Assembly: GCF_014695585.1 (NCBI RefSeq)
Contig: NZ_JACJON010000084.1
Coordinates: 62,001 to 126,000, forward strand
Direction of reading: 5' to 3'
DNA length: 64,000 bases
DNA from: Microcoleus sp. FACHB-831
GTDB taxonomy: Bacteria; Cyanobacteriota; Cyanobacteriia; Cyanobacteriales; FACHB-T130
Shown here one piece after another: positions 27,231-43,205 of the stretch; the stretch's first letter is position 1, and each line of letters begins with the position of its first letter. A program made the position numbers and the translations under genes. The notes beneath the pieces were generated by a model that was not told the origin of the DNA, did not search any database, and was given only the letters and a program-made list of their open reading frames with translations.

Positions 27231-29000
27231 CTAGGCTTGAGACCATAAAAGAGCGATCGCCATCCTCACTGCCTCCCCCACGACCGAAAATCTTGCCCCC
27301 TCATCCGCCGCTTCCTCCCAACGTCGCAACTGCTTGTGGAAAGTTTGATCCTCTTTGGCTCGCTTTATAATTGCCTGACCAATAAGTGTCTTCTGAATTT
27401 CTTCAGTTGAAATCCCTTGACTCTTCAAAAAGTCTATGAGCCGCTGCACGCTCTCTATAATCTGATCGGGAGCTTGCGATTTAATAATCCATTGCATCTG
27501 ATTGATCACCTCTTGATAGTTCCGCAAACGGTGATCTTGAGGCGGCGGTGGTGGTGGTGGCGCAGGCATTGGAGTCTGCCTGAGTCGTGCATCTAGTGGT
27601 GTTGGAGGCGGATCAATACGCAAGGGAATTTGCAGCAATTCCAAAACAGCTTCCCGTTTAGATTGCAGCCTGTGCAACATCGACGGGTACATTTGCAAAA
27701 TGCGTTTAGCCAAACTTTCTCTATTCACCACATGGCTGGCTGTCAGTCTCAGCAGATAACGATCGTCACTGGGTTCATAAGTTTTAATAGTCAGGTATAA
27801 GTCTGGTGAAGACTGTTCCACTTGAATCACAGTAAAAACTAAAGCTTCCCAGTTAGGAGCCTCCTGAAATAGCACCTCAATTGTGGTAGCGCCCTCTGCA
27901 TTCTGTTTGTCGCCATCTTGCTGCTGTTTCCCCAGTTCACCCGGCTCAAAATCGCGATTTTCAGGATAGCGAGCTGTCGGCGTCTTGTTAGCGTAATTAA
28001 ACTGCGTAAAAACATAACTACACTCAACCTTAGACAGATCTACATCCTCAAGATGCCAGTTGTTGATACAACAGCCAGTCATTTGTGCGCGGTCGAGATT
28101 TGTGCGAATTAAATGAGTCTCTAAGAGAAAAGCTTGGCTCAAATTAGCTTCGCTCAAAGTGGCTTCGCTTAGGTACGCGCCGCTGAGATCGGCACGTCGC
28201 AAGTCTGCTCCGCGTAAATTGGCCTCAGTTAAATCAGCGCGTAACAGATATACATCTTGGAGCAGCGATCGCAAAAAGTAGGTTTTTCGCAAACTTGCCT
28301 TAAGCAAATACGCACCAGTCAGATTCGCTCGGCTCAAATCTGCACCGTTGAGATTTGCTTCAGTCAAATCAGCGCCTACCAGAACTGCTCGGTGCAAATC
28401 TGCCTCGCTCAAATTCGCCGACCGCAGATAAGCGGAGGACAAGTCGGCTTCTGTCAAGTTAGCACCCACTAAAATTGCTTCTCGCAAATTCGCTGCTGCT
28501 AAGCGGCTCTCGCGGAGATTTGCCCTAGTAAGATTAGCGTTAATCAAGCTGGCGTTACAGAGATTAACCTCCATCAATTCCGCCTCGATTAACGAGGTAC
28601 CGTTTAGTTTGGCGCGTTCGAGATCGACTTGATCCAACTTTGCTCCTGCAAGGTTCGCGCCACTGAGATCGGCATCTTGGAGAAGTGCCCAGTTGAGTTC
28701 GGCGTCTTGGAGATTAGCCAAACGCAAGTCTACTTTGTGCATTTGAGCGCGGCTCAAACTTGCCTGCTTGAGATCGACATTGTGAAGCGTGGAGCTGTGC
28801 AAATCAGCTTGGCTCAGGCAAGCGCCAGTCAGCCTGCTGTTGTTCAGAGTTGCCCAGCTTAAGTTAGCGCCAGTCAGGTTGGCTCCGGTTAAGTCAATAT
28901 TTTGCAGATTGACCCCGCTGAGACTGGCTCCGCTGAGGTCAATATGGGCAAAATCGCGCTCTCCTTGTCGATAGCGGTCGAGAAAATTCTGTACTTGCAC
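27231..29000 (-). CDS. Long pentapeptide-repeat protein with a C-terminal domain
   Basis: The 589-residue product has about 300 residues (roughly 18-320) of nearly unbroken A(D/N)LXX pentapeptides, for example ADLSGANLAGAKLDQVDLER, which fold as a right-handed four-sided beta helix. A linker rich in acidic residues and Gln follows, then a second domain (about 375-589) with EAPNWEALVFTVIQVEQSSP and a Pro-rich run before a helical end. The first 17 residues (VQNFLDRYRQGERDF) form a helical cap seen in many cyanobacterial members; a similar cap starts the broken gene at 50996. The start is a GTG at 29000. It is predicted cytoplasmic. Function is unknown; protein binding by the helix is a family-based idea. 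Confidence 0.9.
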   Translation of the reverse strand: MQVQNFLDRYRQGERDFAHIDLSGASLSGVNLQNIDLTGANLTGANLSWATLNNSRLTGACLSQADLHSSTLHNVDLKQASLSRAQMHKVDLRLANLQDAELNWALLQDADLSGANLAGAKLDQVDLERAKLNGTSLIEAELMEVNLCNASLINANLTRANLRESRLAAANLREAILVGANLTEADLSSAYLRSANLSEADLHRAVLVGADLTEANLNGADLSRANLTGAYLLKASLRKTYFLRSLLQDVYLLRADLTEANLRGADLRRADLSGAYLSEATLSEANLSQAFLLETHLIRTNLDRAQMTGCCINNWHLEDVDLSKVECSYVFTQFNYANKTPTARYPENRDFEPGELGKQQQDGDKQNAEGATTIEVLFQEAPNWEALVFTVIQVEQSSPDLYLTIKTYEPSDDRYLLRLTASHVVNRESLAKRILQMYPSMLHRLQSKREAVLELLQIPLRIDPPPTPLDARLRQTPMPAPPPPPPPQDHRLRNYQEVINQMQWIIKSQAPDQIIESVQRLIDFLKSQGISTEEIQKTLIGQAIIKRAKEDQTFHKQLRRWEEAADEGARFSVVGEAVRMAIALLWSQA

Positions 29001-29148: not shown

Positions 29149-30702
29149 TTATGGTAGCCAGCGGGGGTGCAATCCAGGTAAAGGCAGCTCTATAGGTTGT
29201 TGCATCTGAGAGGTGGATTGTTCTGGCGTTGACGGAACGAGGGGGAGGAGCCAGAGGCGAGAAGTCGCGATCGCTTGCCCTTCATTGGTTCTTAAGCTCC
29301 CTAACTCTGTTTGGTCTGGCGAACTTACGATCTGATCGAACAGCAGGGCTAAATTATCCGGCGATAGGTTCATCTGAATGTCTCGCTGGTTGGGCAAAAC
29401 CAATAACGGCTTAATCTGGGCTGTATTTATGTCAATCGCCGCTAAGTAAGGCTGTTCTTGGTATTCTTGTCCGGGCAGCAGTTGGGTGAGCAAGCAGTAT
29501 AGCGTAGTTGCGCCGCGATCGAACTCGCAGGCGAGAATTGAGCCGTTTGTGTCTAAAAGTTTTTTCTCAACTCCAGGTTTGATGGCTTGGTTGGGGACGA
29601 TATAGAGCGATCGCGTGTAATTTGTGTTGAACTTCACCATCGCAGTGACTGAGTTATCCTGGGCAAAGCTCAGAGCTACTTGATACTGCGCTAGAAAATC
29701 TACAGGGTTGGCTTTAGGCTGCATCGGTAAAATCGCTACACCTTGTCCCTGAGCGATCGCTACATTCTCATTGTCCGGCGCAATCAAAAAGTCACCCCCA
29801 GGCTGGTTCTCTAACGGTTGTAGAGACATTTTGCCATCCCGATCGCCTTGATTTTTTAGCAGCCACAAACGAAAATCTGCCGGATTGTTGCGATTGATGC
29901 GCCCGACAACAATTGTCTGACCATCGGCAGACAAGTCAAATTTCAGATTGCGATATTCTTTACTATCTAAAACTAGGTTGGTTCGACCTGGTGGCTGCTG
30001 GGAAGTGCGATCGCCAAAAAGGGAAAAGGGAATTAATTGATTTGTTGCTTCTTCGTCTTCCGGCTTGCGATGATGGATTCCTGTCGTTACCGCGTATAAC
30101 TTTTGTTCTTGCAACCCTTTACTAATACTCTGGGGATCGCTAGCAGAAAACAAAATTTTGTCGCCATCTGGGTATGGTCTAAAATCTTCCACCACTAAAT
30201 CTTTGGGCGTCAGAACTGTTTTTTGCTGTCGGGTGAGGTTGTAAACAATTAACCGTCCCTTTTCTTCTCCATCAGTGCCAATGTAAGCAAAAGCGCGATC
30301 GCGAGTCCGAAAAGACCCCACAAACGGCTTCATTACCTTTCCCTTTCCTGCTTCACCTTTATAGCTTTCCGCAGCACCCTGCAACTGAACTTTGTACGGG
30401 GTGTCATACACAGGGGGATCTATTAGGGTATAGGCCATCCGCCGCCCTGCCCAGGCAAATTTTCCGCGTAAAGATGGCTCAATTTTTAGATTCGCTTCGA
30501 CACTAGCGCGATCCATTGGGCGGCTAAAGGTGAGGATAAATTTTTTATCCTCAGCTCCCACTTGTTTCTCTTGCCAGCTAAAATCTCTGACTGTCGGAGC
30601 TGCGTGCTGACCGCTAGATACCATTAGCACCAGCACCAGTGTTAGCACCATGATGAGCGTTAGGGCAGCGCGATCGAGCGGTTGGAGGAATGATTTGGAC
30701 AT
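29149..30702 (-). CDS. Membrane-anchored protein with Ig-like domain and beta-propeller-like repeats
   Basis: The 517-residue product has an N-terminal membrane anchor (ALTLIMVLTLVLVLMVSSG, about residues 12-30). A bacterial Ig-like domain follows (about 38-130: KKFILTFSRPMDRASVEANL and YDTPYKVQLQGA), as in Big_5/SbsA-type folds. The remaining 370 residues show repeated strand pairs such as DKILFSASDP, QTIVVGRINR, ENVAIAQGQG and LALLFDQIVS, resembling TolB/WD40-type propeller blades. It should lie outside the cytoplasmic membrane. No catalytic motif was seen. The upstream neighbour is the TIGR03943 protein gene, on the same strand 135 bp away. Confidence 0.8.
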   Translation of the reverse strand: MSKSFLQPLDRAALTLIMVLTLVLVLMVSSGQHAAPTVRDFSWQEKQVGAEDKKFILTFSRPMDRASVEANLKIEPSLRGKFAWAGRRMAYTLIDPPVYDTPYKVQLQGAAESYKGEAGKGKVMKPFVGSFRTRDRAFAYIGTDGEEKGRLIVYNLTRQQKTVLTPKDLVVEDFRPYPDGDKILFSASDPQSISKGLQEQKLYAVTTGIHHRKPEDEEATNQLIPFSLFGDRTSQQPPGRTNLVLDSKEYRNLKFDLSADGQTIVVGRINRNNPADFRLWLLKNQGDRDGKMSLQPLENQPGGDFLIAPDNENVAIAQGQGVAILPMQPKANPVDFLAQYQVALSFAQDNSVTAMVKFNTNYTRSLYIVPNQAIKPGVEKKLLDTNGSILACEFDRGATTLYCLLTQLLPGQEYQEQPYLAAIDINTAQIKPLLVLPNQRDIQMNLSPDNLALLFDQIVSSPDQTELGSLRTNEGQAIATSRLWLLPLVPSTPEQSTSQMQQPIELPLPGLHPRWLP

Positions 30703-30837: not shown

Positions 30838-31644
30838 TTAATAAGCGTAAGGATCTGAGACGGGCGGAATTTTTTTGACCGAACTAGCCTCAATTATGAG
30901 TTGGCGTTTGTCTTGTTGAGTTTCGGCAATCATTTTACCTTCTACTTCTAACCATGTGTCGGTGGGATAGTCTTTACGACTTCCTGTAAGCTTCACTGGC
31001 AGCGCTACGGGATAGGCATCGGCGGCACAGCAGGTTATTACAAATCTAGTTATTAGCAGATATTGCTCTGGCAGTTCAGGCGGATATACAACAAACCCCT
31101 GGACTTTGGCTTTTTTGCCTATGTATGCATCCGGTTCGGGATAAACATTAAGCGTCCGCACCCAGTCAATAAGCGATCGCTCTTCAGATCGGCCTGAAGT
31201 GCGAAAAGATTGAGTTTTGGAGCGTGTTATGGTGAGAGACTCGTTGACGCCCCGTTGAACGGCTGTTTGGCTAGTGAAGATTTTGGGGGCAACTAACAAA
31301 CCTAGTATTGCTGTTGCCAGCAACAGCCCGCTACTCCAACCAGGGGGAAACAGAGTGATGTGCCCAACGCTGGGAGTGGGAGCTTTTTCTCGTCGAGATG
31401 GGGTTCGCAGGCGGGAAATGACCAGGTTCCAAGCTTTTAAAGCGCTCAAGATTAATAAGCAAATGGCGGTGAGCAAGACTAACCAAAAATAATGTGGGTG
31501 AATCAGCAGCTTTAACTCACCAGTGAACCAGTATTTTAGTAGCAAGATGCCCCAAGCGGCGATCGCTAAGACATCCAACCATTCCACTACAAAGAAGACC
31601 CAAAATCGATTAGATCGAGAAGGTTGTGAGGCTCTAACAGTCAT
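30838..31644 (-). CDS. TIGR03943 family protein (YcgQ-like permease partner)
   Basis: The 268-residue product has four membrane segments in its first half (LDVLAIAAWGILLLKYWF, YFWLVLLTAICLLILSALKAW, GLLLATAILGLLVAP). The soluble second half has YIGKKAKVQGFVVYPPELPE and FVITCCAADAYPVALPV, typical of TIGR03943. In many bacteria this gene is paired with a DUF318 permease, as here: the permease gene ends 6 nt before this start, so the two are certainly one operon. The CC-A-DA motif could bind a metal. Transported solute is not established. Confidence 0.9.
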   Translation of the reverse strand: MTVRASQPSRSNRFWVFFVVEWLDVLAIAAWGILLLKYWFTGELKLLIHPHYFWLVLLTAICLLILSALKAWNLVISRLRTPSRREKAPTPSVGHITLFPPGWSSGLLLATAILGLLVAPKIFTSQTAVQRGVNESLTITRSKTQSFRTSGRSEERSLIDWVRTLNVYPEPDAYIGKKAKVQGFVVYPPELPEQYLLITRFVITCCAADAYPVALPVKLTGSRKDYPTDTWLEVEGKMIAETQQDKRQLIIEASSVKKIPPVSDPYAY

Positions 31645-31650
31645 TAGAAA

Positions 31651-32685
31651 TTATACAAAGAAGCTATAGGACAGGGTGAATAGAAGGGTCAGTTGAGCTG
31701 CCAGGAAAAATATATAAATCACCGCCCTTGTCTTGAAAATTGACAACATCAGACCCACACCTTTGAGGTCAATCATCGGCCCAAACACCAAAAATGCCAA
31801 TATGGAGCCGGGGGTAAAGGCGGAAGCAAAGGAAAGGGCAAAAAATGCATCCACTGTTGAACAAATCGACACTAGGCCAGCCAAGATAATCATGGCAATA
31901 ATTGAGGCGATGGGGTTAGTACCGATTGAGAGTATAAGTTCGCGGGGAGCAGCCACTTGGATAATGGCGGCGATCGCGCTTCCTATAATTAATACTCCCC
32001 CTAACTCCCGCAACTCTTGGACTGTATTTTCAAGTAACAGGTTCAGTTTATATGAGAGCGGTTTGCCCTGCGGTGTAGCTGCCATAGAGGCTTGTAGTAT
32101 GGTGGTGTCCATCCGCAAAGGTTCACCTCCGGGCTGTCCTAGTAAGAATGTACCCGATTGCAAAAGGGTAGATTTTTGTTCTGATGCGGGATAGTTAGCT
32201 TTTGACGATGTAGACGATTTAGTTCCTTTAATTGCTCTGGCGATCGCTGGTTGCAGTAGGGGTCGCATATCAGGCTGGGTACTAAATACGCAGCCAATAA
32301 TAGTCGCGATCGCTAGCGAAAACACTACCCGCAAGACAACTATTTCTGGCTGATCCCGAAATGCCGTCCAAGTTGCCCAGATCACGATGGGATTAATTGT
32401 CGGTGCTGCCAGTAAGAACCCAATTGCTACTGGTGTAGGCACGCCTTGAATCAGCAACCGACGCGCTACGGGCACGTTGCCACACTCGCAAACTGGGAAC
32501 AAGAAGCCGATGCAACTGCCGACGAAAGCTCCTAGAAATGGGTTAGAGGGCATAAATGCAATCAGTTTGCGCTCATCTATAAACAACAGCAGGATGCCGG
32601 ATAGCAAAACTCCCAGCAGCAAGAAAGGCATTGCCTCGACGATCAGGCTCAAAAATAGGGTGAAGGCGTTGTTCAGTTGATTCAT
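31651..32685 (-). CDS. DUF318 family permease (YcgR/ArsP-like)
   Basis: The 344-residue product has about eight membrane segments. It carries the conserved motif FPVCECGNVPVARRLL (about residues 62-77) with two Cys residues, followed by GVPTPVAIGFLLAAPTINPIV. These are hallmarks of the DUF318 permeases that include ArsP (organoarsenical efflux) and YcgR. A loop rich in Ser, Lys and Gln (about 155-215) splits the two halves. It is the first gene of the pair with TIGR03943. I looked for a Zur-type palindrome upstream and saw none. Substrate unknown; metal or metalloid export is a family-based guess. Confidence 0.9.
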   Translation of the reverse strand: MNQLNNAFTLFLSLIVEAMPFLLLGVLLSGILLLFIDERKLIAFMPSNPFLGAFVGSCIGFLFPVCECGNVPVARRLLIQGVPTPVAIGFLLAAPTINPIVIWATWTAFRDQPEIVVLRVVFSLAIATIIGCVFSTQPDMRPLLQPAIARAIKGTKSSTSSKANYPASEQKSTLLQSGTFLLGQPGGEPLRMDTTILQASMAATPQGKPLSYKLNLLLENTVQELRELGGVLIIGSAIAAIIQVAAPRELILSIGTNPIASIIAMIILAGLVSICSTVDAFFALSFASAFTPGSILAFLVFGPMIDLKGVGLMLSIFKTRAVIYIFFLAAQLTLLFTLSYSFFV

Positions 32686-33268
32686 GCTTTAACGGTCGCG
32701 CGATCGCTTTCTATGCTTGGTAATGCAGGCGACATTTTATGCAGGCAAATTTAGGATGCTATTTTAAAACTTATGCATCCCTGCCTAGTCTATTGGCGTA
32801 TTACTCATTATGGCTGGGTGTACTTAAGTCTTTTGTGTAAAGTTTCAAGCAAATGCCTTTTTGCGCTAGCTAAGTGTTATATCAGTTAATACCATTAATG
32901 GGATCGTTAATATGGACATTTTAAAAAAGATGCGTAATTTCTAAGGGAACAACTTTTTTGTCATGCGGGGCAACATAAATGGAGCGTAGGCGAAGCCTTC
33001 GCAATAGCTAGAATTTTGCAGATTCTAGCTAAGTCTATCGCGAGCGCTAATGCTCGGTTAGAGTTAGGCAGAAATTACACAATAGCGTACAAATGCCTAA
33101 GTTTTGTCTAAGTCAATTTAATCTATCCCCATAAGCTTAGGGGTTTTTTCTTAGAGAAGGGAAGTATATATGTGTTTTATAACACACAAGATATGCACCT
33201 AAAATGCTAAACTGTCCAACTAACTGACTCCACGTTAAGTGCTGCATTTTCATGCAGTGGGGTACTTT
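32686..33268. other. Intergenic region with repeats and an orphan terminator
   Basis: This 583-bp gap lies between the divergent permease gene and the first gene of the sensor array. It contains a GGCGAAGCCTTCGC-type palindrome near 32985-33001, an AGCTAGAAT/ATTCTAGCT inverted repeat (33007-33030), a plus-strand terminator (33127-33149) and a GTGTT/AACAC hairpin near 33172. No reading frame was found. The terminator implies plus-strand transcription starting inside this gap. Confidence 0.55.
33127..33149 (+). terminator. Plus-strand intrinsic terminator upstream of the diguanylate cyclase gene
   Basis: CCCC, a bulged A, then TAAGCTTA and GGGG form a hairpin, followed by six T residues (33144-33149). 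It ends 119 bp before the first array gene. No plus-strand gene lies before it in this gap. It therefore ends either a small RNA or a regulated leader transcript. Confidence 0.7.
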
Positions 33269-34369
33269 GTGCCGAACAGATTTTTCTCACCCCAGGTGTG
33301 GTTCCAAGTGAGCGATCGCTACCTCTGTTTAGAGTCCACGCTCCAAGAACTTTCGCTTCACGATTTCCAGGTTGAATCGCATATTACTCTGGGTAGAGAG
33401 GTTAACCAAACCTTAGAAGCCAATCCCCTCCTCCCAGGCGTGATTTTGGCAGGGCAAGGCCAGTTTGTGGGGATGATTTCACGACGGCGATTTTTAGAAT
33501 ACATGAGTCGCCCCTACGGACTAGAACTGTTTTCCAAGCGACCAATTGAGTGTTTGTATCGTTCGGCGCAAACTGAAACATTAGTTTTTGCGGGCAATAC
33601 TCTAATTGTGACAGCGGTGCGGCACTGTTTGCAGCGCTGTGCAGAGTTACTCTACGAACCGATTGTGGTAGAGGTAGCGTCTGGGGTTTATCGATTATTA
33701 GACGTGCATGAATTATTGCTTGCCCAGTCGCAAATTCACGAACTGGCAACCGAACTGGTTACTCAACTCTATCGAGATCTCGAAGATGCAAACGCGCAGT
33801 TACGCCGTCTCGCTAATTTAGACGGGCTGACTCAAACGGCAAATCGGCGCAGGTTTGACGAGTATCTCGATCAACAGTGGCGGTGTATGGGGAGGGATGA
33901 GCAACCGCTTTCTCTAATTATGTGTGATGTTGATTTCTTCAAAAAATACAACGACACTTACGGACATCAATCAGGTGATGATTGTTTGCGGCGGGTTGCT
34001 GCTGCTATTAGGGAAGTAGCTAACAGACCGATGGATTTAGTTGCTCGTTACGGAGGGGAAGAATTTGCAGTTGTTCTGCCAAATACGTCGCTTTTGAATG
34101 CAATTAACTTAGCAGATAAAATTAGGTTAGCAGTAACAGCGCTGAAAATTGCCCATATTAAGTCAGCAGTAAGCCCCTATGTCACTCTTAGTTTGGGGGT
34201 CTCCAGCACATTACCCAATCCAGATGCCCAGCCTGCGACTTTGATTGCGACGGCAGATGAGGCTCTGTATCAGGCGAAAAAGGCAGGGCGCAATAGGTGT
34301 ATAGCAATTGAGGAGAGCAATCGCTTCTTCCTCAGTTCATCCGTGAGCCAGATGCAGCTCCCCGACTAA
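33269..34369 (+). CDS. Diguanylate cyclase with the array's shared N-terminal sensor-like domain
   Basis: The product is 366 residues from the GTG at 33269 (GGGG about 6 nt before; aligned with the start of the paralogue at 38216). The frame is open to 33239. Residues about 10-150 are the domain shared by all four array genes: [45 protein letters not shown] and LYEPIVVEV. It resembles a pair of CBS-like motifs. A short coiled coil leads to a GGDEF domain (about 190-355) with active-site GGEEF. The product-inhibition site RPMD lies exactly five residues before it. NLDGLTQTANRRRFDEYL begins the domain. It should make c-di-GMP and be feedback inhibited. It heads the array. Confidence 0.9.
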   Translation: MPNRFFSPQVWFQVSDRYLCLESTLQELSLHDFQVESHITLGREVNQTLEANPLLPGVILAGQGQFVGMISRRRFLEYMSRPYGLELFSKRPIECLYRSAQTETLVFAGNTLIVTAVRHCLQRCAELLYEPIVVEVASGVYRLLDVHELLLAQSQIHELATELVTQLYRDLEDANAQLRRLANLDGLTQTANRRRFDEYLDQQWRCMGRDEQPLSLIMCDVDFFKKYNDTYGHQSGDDCLRRVAAAIREVANRPMDLVARYGGEEFAVVLPNTSLLNAINLADKIRLAVTALKIAHIKSAVSPYVTLSLGVSSTLPNPDAQPATLIATADEALYQAKKAGRNRCIAIEESNRFFLSSSVSQMQLPD

Positions 34370-34784
34370 AACAATATATTTATACTGTTTGCTCTAGCAC
34401 TTTTCTTCCGGGTTCAATATAGCTGACCTCCCTTGATGTGCTAGTTTATCTCTTCTGGGAAATTAGATGTGTAAAAATTTTTATATGTCTGTCTATGCCA
34501 CACTATTTTTCAATGCCTATGTAAAAGGTAGCATACCTACTATTTATCTATTTAACGATAAAATTTTATCTTTCTATACCTAACGAGCATTTGGTATTTT
34601 TTAATACTTATTGGCTAGAAACTTAGTACTAAGTATATTAATTTTTATTTAAATTAATATTAGTAAACATTTTTAAGCCAAAATATTAATAGGTAATATT
34701 TTATTTCAAAAAGATATACTATGTTTTTCTAAAAGTCAGGTAAGCTGGCCTTAGAACCTATAGCGATCGCGCAACCGTCGTGAT
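34370..34784. other. AT-rich intergenic region
   Basis: The 415-bp spacer before the second array gene is very AT-rich (34480-34720 especially) and has no reading frame. It is large enough for a separate promoter for the kinase gene. No terminator with a GC-rich stem was seen. Confidence 0.4.
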
Positions 34785-36233
34785 GTGGCAGAAGGACCCG
34801 TGTCTAATATTTATCCTCAAGATCTCTCTCTAGAGTCAACCCTCCAACAACTTTCACTTTATAATTTTCACATCCAAAATTCGCGTATTTGCCAGGAAGT
34901 AGCGCAGAATTTTGAAGCGAATCCCCTTCTACCTGGAGTCATTTTGATAGAAGACGGGCAATTTGCAGGAATGATTTCGCGGTGGCGTTTTTTTGAACAA
35001 CTCAGCCGCCCTTTCGGAATAGACATTTTTCTAAAAAGACCTATAAAGTCTTTGCAGCGCTTAGCTGGTAGTGAAACTTTGATACTCCCCGGCGATACAT
35101 TAATTGTGGCGGCTGCAAAGCAGTCTTTGCAACGGCCACCTAAATTACTTTACGAACCTATCGTGGTGGAGCTAGAACCTGGCGTTTATCAATTAGCAGA
35201 TATACACCAATTACTGGTAGCCCAGTCGCAAATTCACGAACTAACAACTCATCTGCTAGACGAGCAAACTAGAGCCAAGATGATGCAATCAGAAAAAATG
35301 GCTAGTTTGGGACGAATGCTGGCTGGAGTTGCCCATGAAATTAGAAATCCAGTTAACTCGATTTGTGGCAATTTAGATTTCTTGACAACCTACTGGAAAA
35401 ACCTGATTAACCTTGTATTAGCTTACGAAGAAGAAGTCGTACACCCATCCCCGCGACTTGTAGGACTTAAAGAAGAAATTGAACTTGACTTCTTAATAGA
35501 AGATTTGGAAAAAATAATGAAAAGTATGAAAATGGGAGGGGATAGATTAACAAAACTCGTTGCGGGTCTGCGAAATTTCTCCCATATGGATGAGTTAAAT
35601 CGTCAGCCAATTGATATACATGAGTGTATTGATAGCACGTTGGTGATTTTGAGCAATCCTCTCAAACAGGGGATTAAAGTAATAAAAGATTATGGCGATT
35701 TACCACCAATTAATTGCTATTCAGGCCAAATGAGTCAGGTATTTATCAATATAATCAGCAATGCCATTGATGCTCTAGAAGAAACAAAAGGAAAGAATAA
35801 AAACGGGAGTATTGTAGCTTTTAAAGAAGAAGACATAAGAAGCGATCTATTACCTACGATCTGGATTAGCACGTATATTCTAGACTCTCATGATGCTGTA
35901 ATTAGGATTGCTGATAATGGGCCTGGGATACCACCAGAAATTCAGGCGCGGATTTTTGATACTTTTTTTACTACTAAGCCAGTGGGAAAGGGGACGGGGC
36001 TGGGGTTGGCTATTTGCCATGAAATTGTGACGCAAAAGCATGGCGGGCAGTTGTTGATGCGATCGCGTGGCCTCTGTTCAGGGCAATCTTGCAGCCTCTA
36101 CCCAGGAGACTCGCGCAGCGTCTCTAGAGGAGAATTGCGTAGTGCATCGGAGACCCAATTATCTAGAGACTCGGAAGCAGTTTTTCAGGGGGATGTGGGT
36201 ACTGAGTTTGAGATTCGGTTGCCGCTGGTTTAA
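34785..36233 (+). CDS. Histidine kinase 1 of the array, with shared N-terminal domain
   Basis: The 482-residue product repeats the shared domain (about residues 12-155: [54 protein letters not shown]), then a coiled coil. The kinase module has the H-box SLGRMLAGVAHEIRNPVN (about 180-197), N-box [14 protein letters not shown]1 box [12 protein letters not shown] and an intact [17 protein letters not shown] lid. All catalytic features are present. A stretch near residues 427-470 (RSRGLCSGQSC to SRDSEAVFQG), just before GTEFEIRLPLV, is an in-frame repeat insertion absent from the paralogues. The start is a GTG at 34785, with another at 34800. No membrane segment: cytoplasmic. Confidence 0.9.
   Translation: MAEGPVSNIYPQDLSLESTLQQLSLYNFHIQNSRICQEVAQNFEANPLLPGVILIEDGQFAGMISRWRFFEQLSRPFGIDIFLKRPIKSLQRLAGSETLILPGDTLIVAAAKQSLQRPPKLLYEPIVVELEPGVYQLADIHQLLVAQSQIHELTTHLLDEQTRAKMMQSEKMASLGRMLAGVAHEIRNPVNSICGNLDFLTTYWKNLINLVLAYEEEVVHPSPRLVGLKEEIELDFLIEDLEKIMKSMKMGGDRLTKLVAGLRNFSHMDELNRQPIDIHECIDSTLVILSNPLKQGIKVIKDYGDLPPINCYSGQMSQVFINIISNAIDALEETKGKNKNGSIVAFKEEDIRSDLLPTIWISTYILDSHDAVIRIADNGPGIPPEIQARIFDTFFTTKPVGKGTGLGLAICHEIVTQKHGGQLLMRSRGLCSGQSCSLYPGDSRSVSRGELRSASETQLSRDSEAVFQGDVGTEFEIRLPLV
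36075..36182. repeat. In-frame palindromic-repeat insertion in kinase 1
   Basis: Between the ATP lid and the final strand of the kinase, about 100 bp consist of elements such as AGCGTCTCTAGAGGAGA and GAGACTCGCGCAGCG, matching a cyanobacterial interspersed palindrome type (GAGACGCT-like). The paralogue at 37965-38015 has a shorter version (GCGTCTCTAAGGGAGA). The reading frame is kept through the insertion. Confidence 0.6.
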
Positions 36234-36694
36234 TCTGTAAACTGCATATTTAAACCTTCAAAAGGGGTTGATAAAGGTGAGGCGATATGTATTTAGCGCC
36301 TTAATTATTTTTATATAGCTACTTCTTTAAATCTCTACATTGTCATCTAAATAAAATTCACGCTTGCCTGCGCGGTCTTTATTCAAGTCCAATATAGACC
36401 GCGATCGCCCAACAAACACTAGCGATTTAGTCCTCAGAATATGTTTCGTCACCAATGGATAATAGGAGTAAACACATACTATTTGACCAACACTTATAAT
36501 TGTTAGCACGCTCAAAACTTATATCTTTTTTACAGGTAAAGTTAAGTTTTAGTTAAATAAAGATTTAATCCGAGTTAACAAGTAAATATACCTAAGTTTC
36601 TAGTTATTTTATTGTAGTCTTAAGAAAATAATCTAGTGCTAGACTAAATCTTGCATCTTTCTATACAAACTCCAGGAACTGATTGAGGTTTGCT
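36234..36694. other. Intergenic region between kinases 1 and 2
   Basis: This 461-bp AT-rich spacer has no convincing gene; a 62-codon minus-strand frame at 36327-36515 lacks conserved features. GAGG lies 7 nt before the next ATG. The spacer could contain a separate promoter for the second kinase. Confidence 0.4.
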
Positions 36695-38056
36695 ATGTTT
36701 GCCCTGCAAGAGCCATGTCAGGAGTTATTTGCTTTGCAAAGCTGTGAGACGCCCAAGCTCAGTTTAGAGTCAACTCTCCAAGAACTGCCACTATACGATT
36801 TTCATATAGAATCCTCAAGTCTGGGGAAAACACTCGCTCAAACATTTGAAGCCAATTCCCTCCTCCCCGGAGCCATCATCACAGACCAACAGCAATTTGC
36901 TGGTATGATTTCGCGGCGAAGATTTTTAGAACAAATGAGCCGCCCCTATGGTCTGGAGCTATTTTCCAAACGGCCAATTAAGTCTTTATATTGCTTTGCC
37001 AGCAGCGAAATTTTGATACTTCCTGGCAATACATTAATTGTGGCAGCAGCAAAACAATCTTTGCAACGCTCGGCAGAGTTACTCTATGAACCTATTGTAG
37101 TAGAGCTAGAACCTGGGGTTTATAGATTAGTAGACGTACACCAATTACTCGTAGCGCAATCAAAAATTCACGAATTGACTACCGAGATGCTGGATGAGCA
37201 AACCCAAGCTCAGATGATGCAAACTGAAAAAATGGCTAGCTTGGGACGCATGGTTGCTGGCGTTGCCCATGAGATAAGCAATCCAGTTAACTGCATTAAT
37301 GGAAATATCAGCTTTCTATCAAACTACTGTAAAGATTTAATCGAATTGATGTCAGCTTATGAACAATTTTCAAGCGTTGCATCGGAAGTTGCTGAAGTAA
37401 AAGAAAGAATAGAAATTGATTTTCTTCTAGAAGACCTGCCCAAAGTGCTGGAAAGTGTCAAAGTTGGTACAGAACAATTAATTAAAATTGTTTGGGGGAT
37501 GCGAAATTTCTCTCACATGGATGAGGCAAATCGTCACGAAGTTAACATACATGAATGTATTGATAGCACGCTACTAATTCTGAATAACCGCCTCAAACAT
37601 GGGGTCGAAGTTATTAAAAACTATGGAGAGTTGCCGCCAGTGAGCGGCTATTCAGGTCAGTTGAGTCAGGTGTTTGTAAATATTATCAGTAATGCTATTG
37701 ATGCACTGCTGGAGAAAGCAGAGTTGCCAGCAACGGGGAAGATAGCTTTCCAACCCCAGATTGAGATTACTACAGAAGTTAAGACAGCTTCAAATCAGTG
37801 CTGGGCGATGGTAAAAATTGCTGATAATGGGCCTGGTATACCGCCCGAAATTAAGGCGCGGATTTTTGAAACCTTCTTTACTACTAAGCCAGTGGGTAAG
37901 GGGACGGGGTTGGGCTTGGCTATTAGCCATCAAATTGTGACTAAAAAGCATGGGGGACAATTGCTAGTGCGATCGCGTAGCGTCTCTAAGGGAGAATCGC
38001 CGTCTGAATGGGGAACTGAGTTTGAGATCCTACTGCCGCTGGTTAATACCAAGTAA
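36695..38056 (+). CDS. Histidine kinase 2 of the array, with shared N-terminal domain
   Basis: The product is 453 residues from the ATG at 36695 (GAGG 7 nt before); the frame is open to a TTG at 36683. The shared domain (about residues 20-160) is closest to those of the cyclase and kinase 1: [63 protein letters not shown]. The kinase module is complete: [43 protein letters not shown] and [17 protein letters not shown]. It has no receiver domain and no membrane segment. A short repeat-derived segment precedes the end ([11 protein letters not shown]). The phosphotransfer partner is not encoded next to it. Confidence 0.91.
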
Positions 38057-38215
38057 TTTGGTAGAGCATGGGAATTTAAGGTGAAATTAATATATGCAGG
38101 GTTGTCGCTGCACCCGCCTAGCATCCAATAAACCAGAGGTGTATGCACGCGAGATAGGAGACGAGCAAAAGAATAAGATGATAGTCTAGGGAGTATGAGC
38201 ATTTTTAGGCATTGA

Positions 38216-39586
38216 GTGCCAGTGCAAAACAGATTTGTATCACCTCCGAAGTTATTTCAGGGGATCGATCGCGACCTCTCTATAGATTCAACCCTGCGAG
38301 AACTGCCGCTCTACGATTTTCAGGTGGAAATTAGCTGCCAAGGCGTAGACGTAGCTCGTGTTTTTGAGAAGTATCCCTTGCTGCCAGGAGCAATCTTGGT
38401 GGATAAGGGTGAGTTTTCGGGTATGATTTCGCGGCGTTGGCTTTTGGAGTACCTGATCCGTCCCCACAGACTAGAGCTGTTTTTGCACAAACCGCTTCAG
38501 GTTCTTTACAGGTACGTTCGTTCTGAAGTTTTGATACTTCCCGACAGCACGACAATTTTGGCTGCTTCCCACCAAGCACTGCGGCGCTCGGTCGAACTCC
38601 GAGGCGAACCAGTCGTGGTACAAGTGGAACCAGACAAGCATTTTTTATTGGACTTTCAAGAATTAAATATTGCCTCTTGGCAAATCCGAGGCATAGAAAC
38701 TCAGGTAAGGTACGAGCGCACGCAAGCTCAAATGATTCAAAGCGAGAAAATGGCTAGCTTGGGTCGGCTAGTGGATGGCGTAGCACACGAAATTTTAGAC
38801 CCGGTTAGTTTTATTTGGGGCAACTTAACATACATCTCAACTTATAACGAACAGATCCTCGAATTGGTTTCTGCTTATGAGGAATATCTCCCCCAAATAC
38901 CAGTAGAAATAGCTCAGTTAAAAGAAGATATTGAATTAGATTTTTTACGACAAGATCTGCCGCGAGCAATTGGCAGTATCCGGGCGGGAGCAGAACGTTT
39001 AAAAAAGCTGGTTACGAGCTTGCAAAACTTTTGCCATATTGATGACGTTTATCCTAAGCCCGCAGATTTACACGCCATACTTGATAGTATTCTTTTACTT
39101 TTGAAAAGCCGTTTAACCAGCGATATTGAAGTTGTAAAAGAATATGGAATTTTGCCACCAGTGCAATGCTACGCTGGTCAAATTAATCAGGTTTTTATGA
39201 ATATCATCACCAATGCTATAGATGCATTAATCGATCGGGCAGTTGCTCAGAATTTTTCTAAAGATTTCAGGTATTCCGGACAACCAGAACCAGCTGATAA
39301 ACCTCGGATTGAAATTTCAACGCAGGTATCTTCGCGCAAGGCAAGTACGTCAGAAACTTCTGACGTTCGCTGGGTTTCTATTCGCATTGCAGATAATGGG
39401 CCTGGGATGTCTTTAGAAATGCAGCAGAAAATTCTTGAGTCTTTTTCTATTGAGAAACGTGCTGCTAAGGAAACAAGTTTGGGGGTTAGTTATCAGATTG
39501 TGACCGCCAAGCACGGGGGGCATTTTATGTTTCAATCACAGCTTGGAGCGGGGACAGAATTCCAGATTTGGTTGCCTTTGGTTTAA
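38216..39586 (+). CDS. Histidine kinase 3 of the array, with a degraded ATP lid
   Basis: The 456-residue product carries the shared domain in its most divergent form (about residues 18-150: IDSTLRELPLYDFQVE, YPLLPGAIL, GMISRRWLLEYLIRPHRLEL, GEPVVVQVEPD). The H-box keeps its His but has HEILDP instead of HEI-NP. The N-box (MNIITNAIDALID) and G1 box (IADNGPGMSLEM) are kept. The lid, [15 protein letters not shown] in its paralogues, is here SFSIEKRAAKETSLGV, so the G2 glycines are mostly lost. It may be a weak or inactive kinase, perhaps a partner subunit for the other two. GTG at 38216 is the start. It lies 160 bp after kinase 2. Confidence 0.88.
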   Translation: MPVQNRFVSPPKLFQGIDRDLSIDSTLRELPLYDFQVEISCQGVDVARVFEKYPLLPGAILVDKGEFSGMISRRWLLEYLIRPHRLELFLHKPLQVLYRYVRSEVLILPDSTTILAASHQALRRSVELRGEPVVVQVEPDKHFLLDFQELNIASWQIRGIETQVRYERTQAQMIQSEKMASLGRLVDGVAHEILDPVSFIWGNLTYISTYNEQILELVSAYEEYLPQIPVEIAQLKEDIELDFLRQDLPRAIGSIRAGAERLKKLVTSLQNFCHIDDVYPKPADLHAILDSILLLLKSRLTSDIEVVKEYGILPPVQCYAGQINQVFMNIITNAIDALIDRAVAQNFSKDFRYSGQPEPADKPRIEISTQVSSRKASTSETSDVRWVSIRIADNGPGMSLEMQQKILESFSIEKRAAKETSLGVSYQIVTAKHGGHFMFQSQLGAGTEFQIWLPLV

Positions 39587-39929: not shown

Positions 39930-42900
39930 ATGGCTAAAAATATTACAAAAAGTTATGTCTGGGCGCTCAAAGTTGCGGTTGTCAGCTTTTCATTTCCCCT
40001 CCTATTGACTGGCAATAGCTGGGCGCAAAAACAAGGAAATGGCGAACAGGTAATAAAAATTGCCCAAACAAATTCTCCAACAGCGACAGCTTCACCTAGT
40101 CCGGCAGCTTCACCAACAGCGGCAGCTTCCCCTAGTCCCGCATTGTCGCAAGAGGCTGAAATCGCCTCCTATATCCAGAAGTTTAGAACTGACGATTTTC
40201 GGGTTTACCAAGATGCCTTAAGAGACTTGGAGAGAATTGGCACGCCAGCGGTTCCCGCACTGATCGAAGCATTGCAGGACAAGGATGTGCGGGTGCGCGT
40301 GTATGCTGCCGATGTGCTGGGAGCGCTGGGTTCCAAGGCGCAAGAGGCAGTCCCGCCTCTCGCGAAAGCACTCAAAGACCCCGATCAGTACGTGAGAGCA
40401 AGTGCTGCGGAAGCTCTGCATGAAATTGGTTCCCAGGCTAAAGACGCAGTAACCGAGCTGATCGGAGCGCTCAAGGACGAAGATAGGTACGTGCGCTACA
40501 GTGCCGCAGATGCACTGGGACGAATTGGGTCAGAGGCGAAAACGGCAGTTCCAGCTTTGATAGAAACGCTCAAGGATAAAGATCCTTACGTGCGCTACAG
40601 TGCCGCAGATACCCTAGTGGCAATAGGTGAGGATGCAAAAGACGCAGTAAAGCCGCTAATTGAAACCCTCAAGGATGAAGATGAATACGTTAGAGCAGGT
40701 TCGGCAGCTGCATTGGGAGCGATAGGTGAGGATGCAAAAGACGCAGTGCCGAAGCTCATGGACACGCTAGCAAAAGACAAAAGTGGGTTCGTGCGATCGC
40801 GTGCTGCTAATGCTCTAGGAGATATCAATTGGCAAAAGAAATCTACCGTCCCGGCACTAATCGAAGCACTACAAGACAAAGATCAAAGAGTACGCTCTGC
40901 TGCTGCAATTGCCATAGGTGAAATCGGTGCAGACTCGCCAGCTGCTATCCCTGCGTTGATCCAAGCGCTGCAAGAAGACGATGACAAAGTGCGCTCAAGT
41001 GCTGCTGAAGGTGTGGGAGAGATTGCCGGAAAACTTCAAGACAAAGCAACCAAGCTATCTATCCCAGCCTTAAACAGCATTATTACGGACTTAGAAATAG
41101 CCGTAAAAGTTCTGGAAGACCCTAAAGCTAACTTCAAAGACTCACAAATAGCACAGTTAAAACGGCCTCTTGTAGGAATAAAAGCCGAAAAAGAAGCCCG
41201 CTTATCAGATAGATTCTCCCAGTGGCTGGCGAAGAATCCATTCTGGACGGGAGCGTTGCTTTACTTTACCTTACTCCCATCTACCTGGTGGCTGCTTCTG
41301 CGGTTGCGTCCCCTGTGGCTGTTGGCGCTCAACGAAGCACTGGAACCCTTCTCAAACATTCAGCTAACAGGTTTTATGAGAGGGACGAAGTTATCGCTCC
41401 GCGCCATTTTGTTGATTAGTTTCTTTACTCACAACTCCAGAGTGCTGGATGCGTGGGTGGCTAAATATATCAAAGCAGCTAGAGAAGAATTTGGGCAAAA
41501 AGATGCAGTAAGCGATCGCTCAATTCACATCCCAGTTCCAATTACCATAGACGGCAAACCCGACACACAACTTACTGCCTCGGATTTGCAGACAAAGTTC
41601 AACCAACAGCAATGCAATTTGGTTATCTGGGGAGAAGGTGGATCGGGTAAGACGAGCATAGCTTGTCAAATGGCTAAATGGGCGATGGCGGAAAATCAGG
41701 CAGATCGACTTTGCGATCATCTAATGCTACCCATCCTCATAGAAGAAGATTTAGACATTAAAGTAGACAAGAAAGCTGACAAAAAAGCTGAAAAGACCAA
41801 AACTCCACCTTTCATAGATGCAATTCGAGGGCATCTCCAAGACTTAATCAACGAAGTAAAACCGATTTCCGAGGAACTGCTCGAACGACTGCTCCAAGAG
41901 CAGCGCATTCTAGTGATTGTCGATCGATTCTCGGAACTAAACGATGCTACGAGAGGAGAAATCAGACCTGAGTCTCCTGAATTTCCGGTTAACTCCCTAG
42001 TAATTACCTCGCGGTTTGAGGAAAAGCTGGGTCGAGTGAACAAAACCATCCTCAAACCCCAACGGATTGAAGGCACAAACCTCGCCTCATTCGTGGAAGC
42101 TTATATTAAGGAACAAGGCAAGCGCGATAAGTTTACGGATTTGGAATTTTTCGACGGGTGCGGACAACTTTCGCTGAGGATTGGTAGCCGAAGCGTGACG
42201 CTGCTGTTGGTGAAAATGTACGCCGAGCAGATGATCCAGGCTAAGGAAAAGGATGTAGTAGGCGAATTGGCAAGTGGTATTCCTGATTTAATGTTGACTT
42301 ACTTAAACGAACTCAACGGGGATATATCAGATGGTAAGTTGGACAACCGCACCATTCACAAAGATGCCAAAGCTTTGGCGTGGGAATGCTTGAAGACAGA
42401 CTATCGCGCTGGAGTGGTAAAGCGTAAAGATGCGATCGCGACATTAGGCGATAAATCTGAAGATCGTCTCAAATATCTCGAAAACCGTCTGCGCTTGATC
42501 CAAACTGTTGGCCCTGCTCAAGACCAAATCCGCTTCACCCTCGACCCTCTGGCTGAATATCTCGCTGGTTTGCAGCTATTAGAACTTAATGGCGACAAGG
42601 AGGAAGCGTGGCGCGAGTTCCTCGACAAAACAATGGCCAAAACTGATGCACAAGGGGGAACTCAAGGTTTGTTGCTAGCGGTACGAGATTGCTGTGTGGC
42701 TTACGGTCGCGACGCAAAAGTGCCTAACTTTGTTGTGGAAGAACTGGGTGTAATGACTGGTCTTACTCCAGCGCCTGAACCAGCTCAAGTAATAGAGGTG
42801 GCTGAGGAGTTGGCGGTTGCAACTGTGGTAGAAGAACCAGCCTTAGCTGAGATAACGTCAGCAGAACAAACCCAACCTGCTGCAATTAACGAAAACCCAG

Positions 42901-43205
42901 AAAGCGTTAATACTACTAACGACGCGATCGCTACAACTGAGGTAGAAAAAGACCCCTCTTCTAGCCTGCTTCAACCTGCTGCGGTTTATGAAAAGCCTGA
43001 AACCGTCAACACAGCTAACAACGCGATCGCTAAGGTTGAGGTAGAAACAGGTTCTGACTCAAGTGCGATTGTCGCTGAGTCAGTGCAACCTCAACCATCT
43101 TCAACGATCGACCCGCCGCCGCCAATCGTCACCATTATCGGCGATTTGGTTGCTAAAACCGCGTCAGACAAAGCTTCTGACTCACCAAGCGTCGCCCCAG
43201 CCTGA
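39930..43205 (+). CDS. Exported HEAT-repeat protein with membrane segment and NACHT-type NTPase
   Basis: The 1091-residue product has a signal peptide (about residues 1-32, VVSFSFPLLLTGNSWA), a Pro/Ala/Ser linker, then about nine HEAT repeats (about 75-375; units such as VRVYAADVLGALGSKAQEAV). A membrane region follows (about 435-463, FWTGALLYFTLLPSTWWLLL). The second half is a STAND/NACHT-type NTPase: Walker A WGEGGSGKTS (about 567-576), Walker B RILVIVDRFSELN (about 657), sensor-like LVITSRFEE, and a helical region to about 930. The C-terminal 150 residues are acidic, Ala/Val/Glu-rich and repetitive. The layout places HEAT repeats outside and the NTPase inside the membrane. STAND NTPases usually act as switches for signalling or defence. 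Role unknown. Confidence 0.88.
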   Translation: MAKNITKSYVWALKVAVVSFSFPLLLTGNSWAQKQGNGEQVIKIAQTNSPTATASPSPAASPTAAASPSPALSQEAEIASYIQKFRTDDFRVYQDALRDLERIGTPAVPALIEALQDKDVRVRVYAADVLGALGSKAQEAVPPLAKALKDPDQYVRASAAEALHEIGSQAKDAVTELIGALKDEDRYVRYSAADALGRIGSEAKTAVPALIETLKDKDPYVRYSAADTLVAIGEDAKDAVKPLIETLKDEDEYVRAGSAAALGAIGEDAKDAVPKLMDTLAKDKSGFVRSRAANALGDINWQKKSTVPALIEALQDKDQRVRSAAAIAIGEIGADSPAAIPALIQALQEDDDKVRSSAAEGVGEIAGKLQDKATKLSIPALNSIITDLEIAVKVLEDPKANFKDSQIAQLKRPLVGIKAEKEARLSDRFSQWLAKNPFWTGALLYFTLLPSTWWLLLRLRPLWLLALNEALEPFSNIQLTGFMRGTKLSLRAILLISFFTHNSRVLDAWVAKYIKAAREEFGQKDAVSDRSIHIPVPITIDGKPDTQLTASDLQTKFNQQQCNLVIWGEGGSGKTSIACQMAKWAMAENQADRLCDHLMLPILIEEDLDIKVDKKADKKAEKTKTPPFIDAIRGHLQDLINEVKPISEELLERLLQEQRILVIVDRFSELNDATRGEIRPESPEFPVNSLVITSRFEEKLGRVNKTILKPQRIEGTNLASFVEAYIKEQGKRDKFTDLEFFDGCGQLSLRIGSRSVTLLLVKMYAEQMIQAKEKDVVGELASGIPDLMLTYLNELNGDISDGKLDNRTIHKDAKALAWECLKTDYRAGVVKRKDAIATLGDKSEDRLKYLENRLRLIQTVGPAQDQIRFTLDPLAEYLAGLQLLELNGDKEEAWREFLDKTMAKTDAQGGTQGLLLAVRDCCVAYGRDAKVPNFVVEELGVMTGLTPAPEPAQVIEVAEELAVATVVEEPALAEITSAEQTQPAAINENPESVNTTNDAIATTEVEKDPSSSLLQPAAVYEKPETVNTANNAIAKVEVETGSDSSAIVAESVQPQPSSTIDPPPPIVTIIGDLVAKTASDKASDSPSVAPA

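Follow-up and report, generated by a model that had tools for sequence, protein, structure and literature searches.

A divergent CBS-pair sensor family with diguanylate cyclase, histidine kinase and degenerate kinase outputs at a Microcoleus locus, and its proposed link to a permease operon

CBS domains have been listed as sensors that accompany c-di-GMP enzymes (PMC8846402) and likewise histidine kinases (PMC1592074); a CBS input on both GGDEF and histidine kinase (HK) outputs is, in principle, already known. As for HK-like proteins with altered motifs, DivL from Caulobacter carries a Tyr in place of the His and keeps the H, N, G1, F and G2 boxes (PMC4211667). The locus described here lies in Microcoleus sp. 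FACHB-831 (contig NZ_JACJON010000084.1, positions 62,001 to 126,000), within the window, i.e.: the whole stretch of 64,000 nucleotides analysed, whose numbering we use throughout. Sequence and structure prediction place in it a shared CBS input, a diguanylate cyclase (DGC), two motif-complete kinases and a fourth kinase with a defective ATP lid. The sensor type is well described and has been named with each of the two outputs, as cited above, but a search of open-access papers found no report of this array or of its domain family.

The array consists of four consecutive genes on the plus strand. Gene 1 (33239-34369, 376 aa; ORF and Pfam), for which a GTG at 33269 is a plausible alternative start, encodes a CBS pair followed by a GGDEF diguanylate cyclase. 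Genes 2 (34785-36233, +, 482 aa) and 3 (36683-38056, +, 457 aa) join a CBS pair to a HisKA/HATPase kinase with intact motifs, and gene 4 (38216-39586, +, 456 aa) joins it to a degenerate histidine kinase in which the His is retained and the ATP-lid glycines are gone. The first-pass annotation had proposed that all four share one N-terminal domain, and a four-way alignment bears this out: the N-terminal ~150 residues are 47-72% identical in pairwise BLASTP comparisons (E about 2e-45 to 2e-84), homologous far beyond chance, and the C-terminal halves are alignable only among the three kinases (genes 2-4). The domain spans 33317-33796 in gene 1 (from the alignment), 34821-35294 in gene 2, 36752-37228 in gene 3 (structure predicted) and 38273-38746 in gene 4, all on the plus strand. 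The markers proposed for it (LLPG, GMISRR, YEPIVVE, and AQSQIHEL) are present, but substituted in copies 2 (GMISRW) and 4 (GEPVVVQ for YEPIVVE and ASWQIRGI for AQSQIHEL). A fifth copy is found elsewhere in the same genome (C51), on a 567-aa HK. Intergenic gaps measure 415, 449 and 159 bp, in order, and distances of 159-449 bp do not imply a single transcript; promoter and terminator scans gave scores no better than those of shuffles. Directly 3' of the array lies a HEAT-repeat protein (39930-43205, +) with NACHT-like and NCH4 matches, whose relatives occur in just two of the fetched loci.

We sought the identity of the shared domain in profiles and in its predicted fold. Pfam CBS scored 13.1 bits or nothing on the window proteins (gathering cut-off: 24) and no family member tested reached the gathering score, which is a detection threshold, the CBS-pair assignment resting on the fold match; at E≤1, Pfam CBS was detected in 46 of 67 domain family members (best 1.7e-4). 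An AlphaFold2 model built on a 67-row alignment (pLDDT 92) has two CBS-like repeats, and the two beta-alpha-beta-beta-alpha repeats of a CBS pair are packed together in it. Its listed Foldseek matches in the PDB are CBS-domain proteins (2ef7, DarB, AcuB, and CBSX proteins; E 1e-5, probability 1); by sequence, the domain profile found only weak CBS matches and chance ones in the PDB. Because of the family's Pfam matches, the model and the Foldseek matches, the shared N-terminal domain is, by predicted structure, a divergent CBS pair, as had been guessed beforehand. The ligand is another matter. The canonical CBS adenosine-binding motif is G-h-x-T/S-x-x-D, typical though not universal. Its nucleotide-binding Asp is absent from both repeats of the domain (R/L in repeat 1, Q/E in repeat 2), and the earlier suggestion of adenine-nucleotide sensing therefore has no backing in the sequence, which neither supports nor excludes such ligands. 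Invariant across the domain are S54, R55, E60, and R106. Outputs found on it comprise DGC, HK, degenerate HK and SpoIIE phosphatase, the last one joined to the same sensor domain in Baaleninema simplex PCC 7105 (L049:7995-9269; 9e-40) as a third output type.

The outputs of genes 1 to 3 carry intact motifs. The GGDEF end predicted for gene 1 is clear (Pfam 4.4e-51), with an intact active-site motif, GGEEF, found also in 36/36 sampled DGC copies; the inhibitory site RxxD is present as RPMD and is variable among relatives. HATPase_c was found in genes 2, 3 and 4 (Pfam, 7e-20, 6e-22 and 2e-13 respectively), and HisKA above its curated cut-off in gene 2 only. The H, N, G1, F and G2 motifs are all intact in genes 2 and 3. 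One input domain is hence joined to both GGDEF and histidine kinase ends, as first proposed, yet the description of genes 2-4 as three kinase modules needs amending for gene 4, a conserved degenerate kinase. Near its C-terminus, gene 2 bears a Ser/Arg-rich insertion of ~40 residues (36085-36205, +); its relatives have insertions of differing length at about the same site, and the 121-bp region does not recur at other sites of this genome.

Gene 4 departs from its active siblings in the H-box and the G2 box. Its H-box, HEILDPV (38786-38806, +; HExxNP in active siblings), is invariant in 71 gene-4-type copies -a set that includes some overlapping loci, with 41 copies in the 93% non-redundant set- so that the phosphoacceptor His and EILDPV are kept in 100% of them. 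These copies were gathered by the string EILDP, whose invariance is therefore partly by construction; in unselected lists, EILDP occurs in every lid-defective copy and in no lid-intact copy. The degenerate G2 box, KETSL (39467-39481, +), stands where active siblings have GKGTGLGLA: GTGLGL has become ET--SL, the lid is two residues shorter in 71/71 copies, and the G2 glycines, present in 109/109 active siblings, are found in 0/71. The HisKA phosphatase motif is E/DxxT/N (PMC5727384). At this position HExxN has changed to HEILD, with an Asp four residues after the His in 71/71 copies, and gene 4 lacks the Thr/Asn of the motif, a loss from which lower phosphatase activity would be expected. In the predicted structure of gene 4, a continuous helix follows the CBS pair (residues 128-205); few parts of the model are less certain than the ATP lid.

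One can suspect that gene 4 has kept its kinase activity, albeit with an unusual ATP lid, given that the His is invariant and that the first N-box Asn and G1 DNGxG are retained in nearly all copies. Against this stand the lost glycines and the shortened lid, together with a second N-box Asn retained in just 78% of gene-4-type copies and a HisKA match under the curated cut-off. We consider retained activity improbable and infer that gene 4 is kinase-dead. Loss of catalytic motifs could also mark a decaying pseudogene, but this is barely credible: none of the sampled genomes has a disrupted reading frame, the H-box shows higher conservation than that of the active siblings, and conservation and low dN/dS contradict it. 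Instead, the sequences argue for a degenerate kinase that purifying selection maintains, conserved in a clade sampled across Cyanobacteriales, because the gene-4 type is monophyletic (domain tree, 13 rows; SH-aLRT 100), because its lid and H-box signature recurs in copies of many families (including Nostocaceae and kin), and because its dN/dS, about 0.15-0.3, is within the range of the active HK and DGC paralogues. A different fate for the catalytic domain, by analogy with CckA, would be its conversion into a second-messenger sensor, for instance for the c-di-GMP of gene 1. Structural and sequence searches matched, among others, the CckA catalytic domain, which binds c-di-GMP (PDB 5idm), and a DGC adjoins in the array, but many other kinases match equally well and the degenerate kinase persists without an adjacent DGC of this kind; we regard such a conversion as very improbable.

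The domain was present in 91 of 386 cyanobacterial genomes in a one-query survey, and a single-query scan of named genomes for close relatives gave matches in cyanobacteria only. Queried with the gene-4 domain, 233 of 391 Cyanobacteriales genomes had a match at E≤1e-10, a figure that counts all domain family members and not gene-4 orthologues alone. The four-gene form is not the conserved unit: relatives carry three genes, commonly DGC-HK-degenerate HK. Within the family of the window genome, this three-gene array is found in four of the five other genomes and the remaining one shows, on a short contig, an HK paired with a degenerate HK; among the six, only the window genome was found to have a second active HK in its array. 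The four genes of the window are thus probably best read as the usual set (DGC, HK, degenerate HK) plus one extra active kinase. In about 15 Nostocaceae-like genomes, the sole family match to the gene-4 domain query is a strong gene-4 type, so a sibling kinase cannot be its general partner. No response regulator was found conserved beside the array.

Upstream of the array, on the opposite strand, lies a block comprising an ArsP_1-type permease (31651-32685, -), a TIGR03943 putative permease subunit (30838-31644, -) and a conserved 517-aa protein with no Pfam or NCBIfam match (29149-30702, -). This last protein has an N-terminal hydrophobic segment and adjoins TIGR03943 and ArsP_1 genes in many relatives; a pentapeptide-repeat protein (27231-29000, -) is syntenic with the block in several of them. 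The permease is syntenic in 32 other contigs, where the block divergently adjoins sensor genes, and in 7 of these 32 it is directly beside the degenerate kinase; in several Nostocaceae, the degenerate kinase alone remains next to the permease. In an even genome draw, a sensor was found within 1.5 kb at 11 of the best 30 permease loci (own included), and about two thirds of the sampled permease loci had no sensor nearby. Because of these 11 of 30, the permease-sensor link is common but not universal. The permease-array intergenic regions held no shared regulatory inverted repeat, just AT-rich words and near-copies, and a literature search on TIGR03943 found nothing.

These arrangements could result from plain tandem duplication, leaving four independent neighbouring sensors with their own partners, no joint circuit and no permease link. 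The large intergenic gaps fit such a scenario, as do the domain tree, in which copies group largely by output class and so diverged long ago, and the occurrence of DGC, HK and degenerate HK apart from each other. But several families retain both the DGC-HK-degenerate HK order and the divergent permease, far above a chance of adjacency of roughly 0.001-0.002 per genome, as we estimate it from the number of copies and the size of the genome, and we hold plain duplication to be unlikely, if a serious contender.

The reading that we propose is instead a joint circuit: a cytoplasmic CBS input feeding both c-di-GMP and a phosphorelay, a non-autophosphorylating gene 4 subunit, and a linkage to the permease. 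As a whole, we give it an even chance. The CBS pair would sense one cytoplasmic cue and relay a conformational change to its output along the long helix that lies between them, so that a single cue could set c-di-GMP and phosphorelay together. Protein 4, unable to autophosphorylate, would act as a non-catalytic subunit that is either phosphorylated in trans by a different kinase or binds to a response regulator. This circuit would serve the divergently transcribed permease/TIGR03943 operon. On a broader scale, we tentatively suggest, with some doubt, that CBS-sensing pseudo-HKs that keep the His and do not load themselves may form an ancient Cyanobacteriales family at the core of an ArsP_1/TIGR03943-tied locus, joined in filamentous lineages by active kinases and a DGC of the same sensor family. 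If the circuit exists, a single locus would let one input domain act on a second messenger, on a phosphorelay and on a catalytically dead kinase, the role of a His-retaining pseudokinase would be addressable by single-gene deletions, and there would be a candidate regulator for a widespread, uncharacterised permease operon.

Compared to known systems, the domain shares with the CBS pair or Bateman module (PF00571) the two-repeat fold and an N-terminal regulatory place before an enzymatic output, and differs in its score below gathering and in the motif Asp missing from both repeats. CBS-GGDEF and CBS-HK proteins likewise have CBS input on these outputs, whereas here one paralogous CBS family serves DGC, HK, degenerate HK and, in Baaleninema, SpoIIE, partly in conserved arrays. 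The divergent neighbours match both families of the ArsP_1 permease with TIGR03943 partner; against the SO_0444 Cu/Zn efflux model, the window permease scores 89, far below the 300-bit cut-off. The newer part is the conserved family of His-retaining degenerate kinases, and its permease linkage is also of interest. By analogy, its nearest functional counterpart would be DivL, which is likewise conserved over a wide range, has the DHp and CA fold of an HK and is believed to work without kinase activity, yet with the opposite lesion: gene 4 keeps the His and loses G2, and takes its input from a CBS pair where DivL uses PAS.
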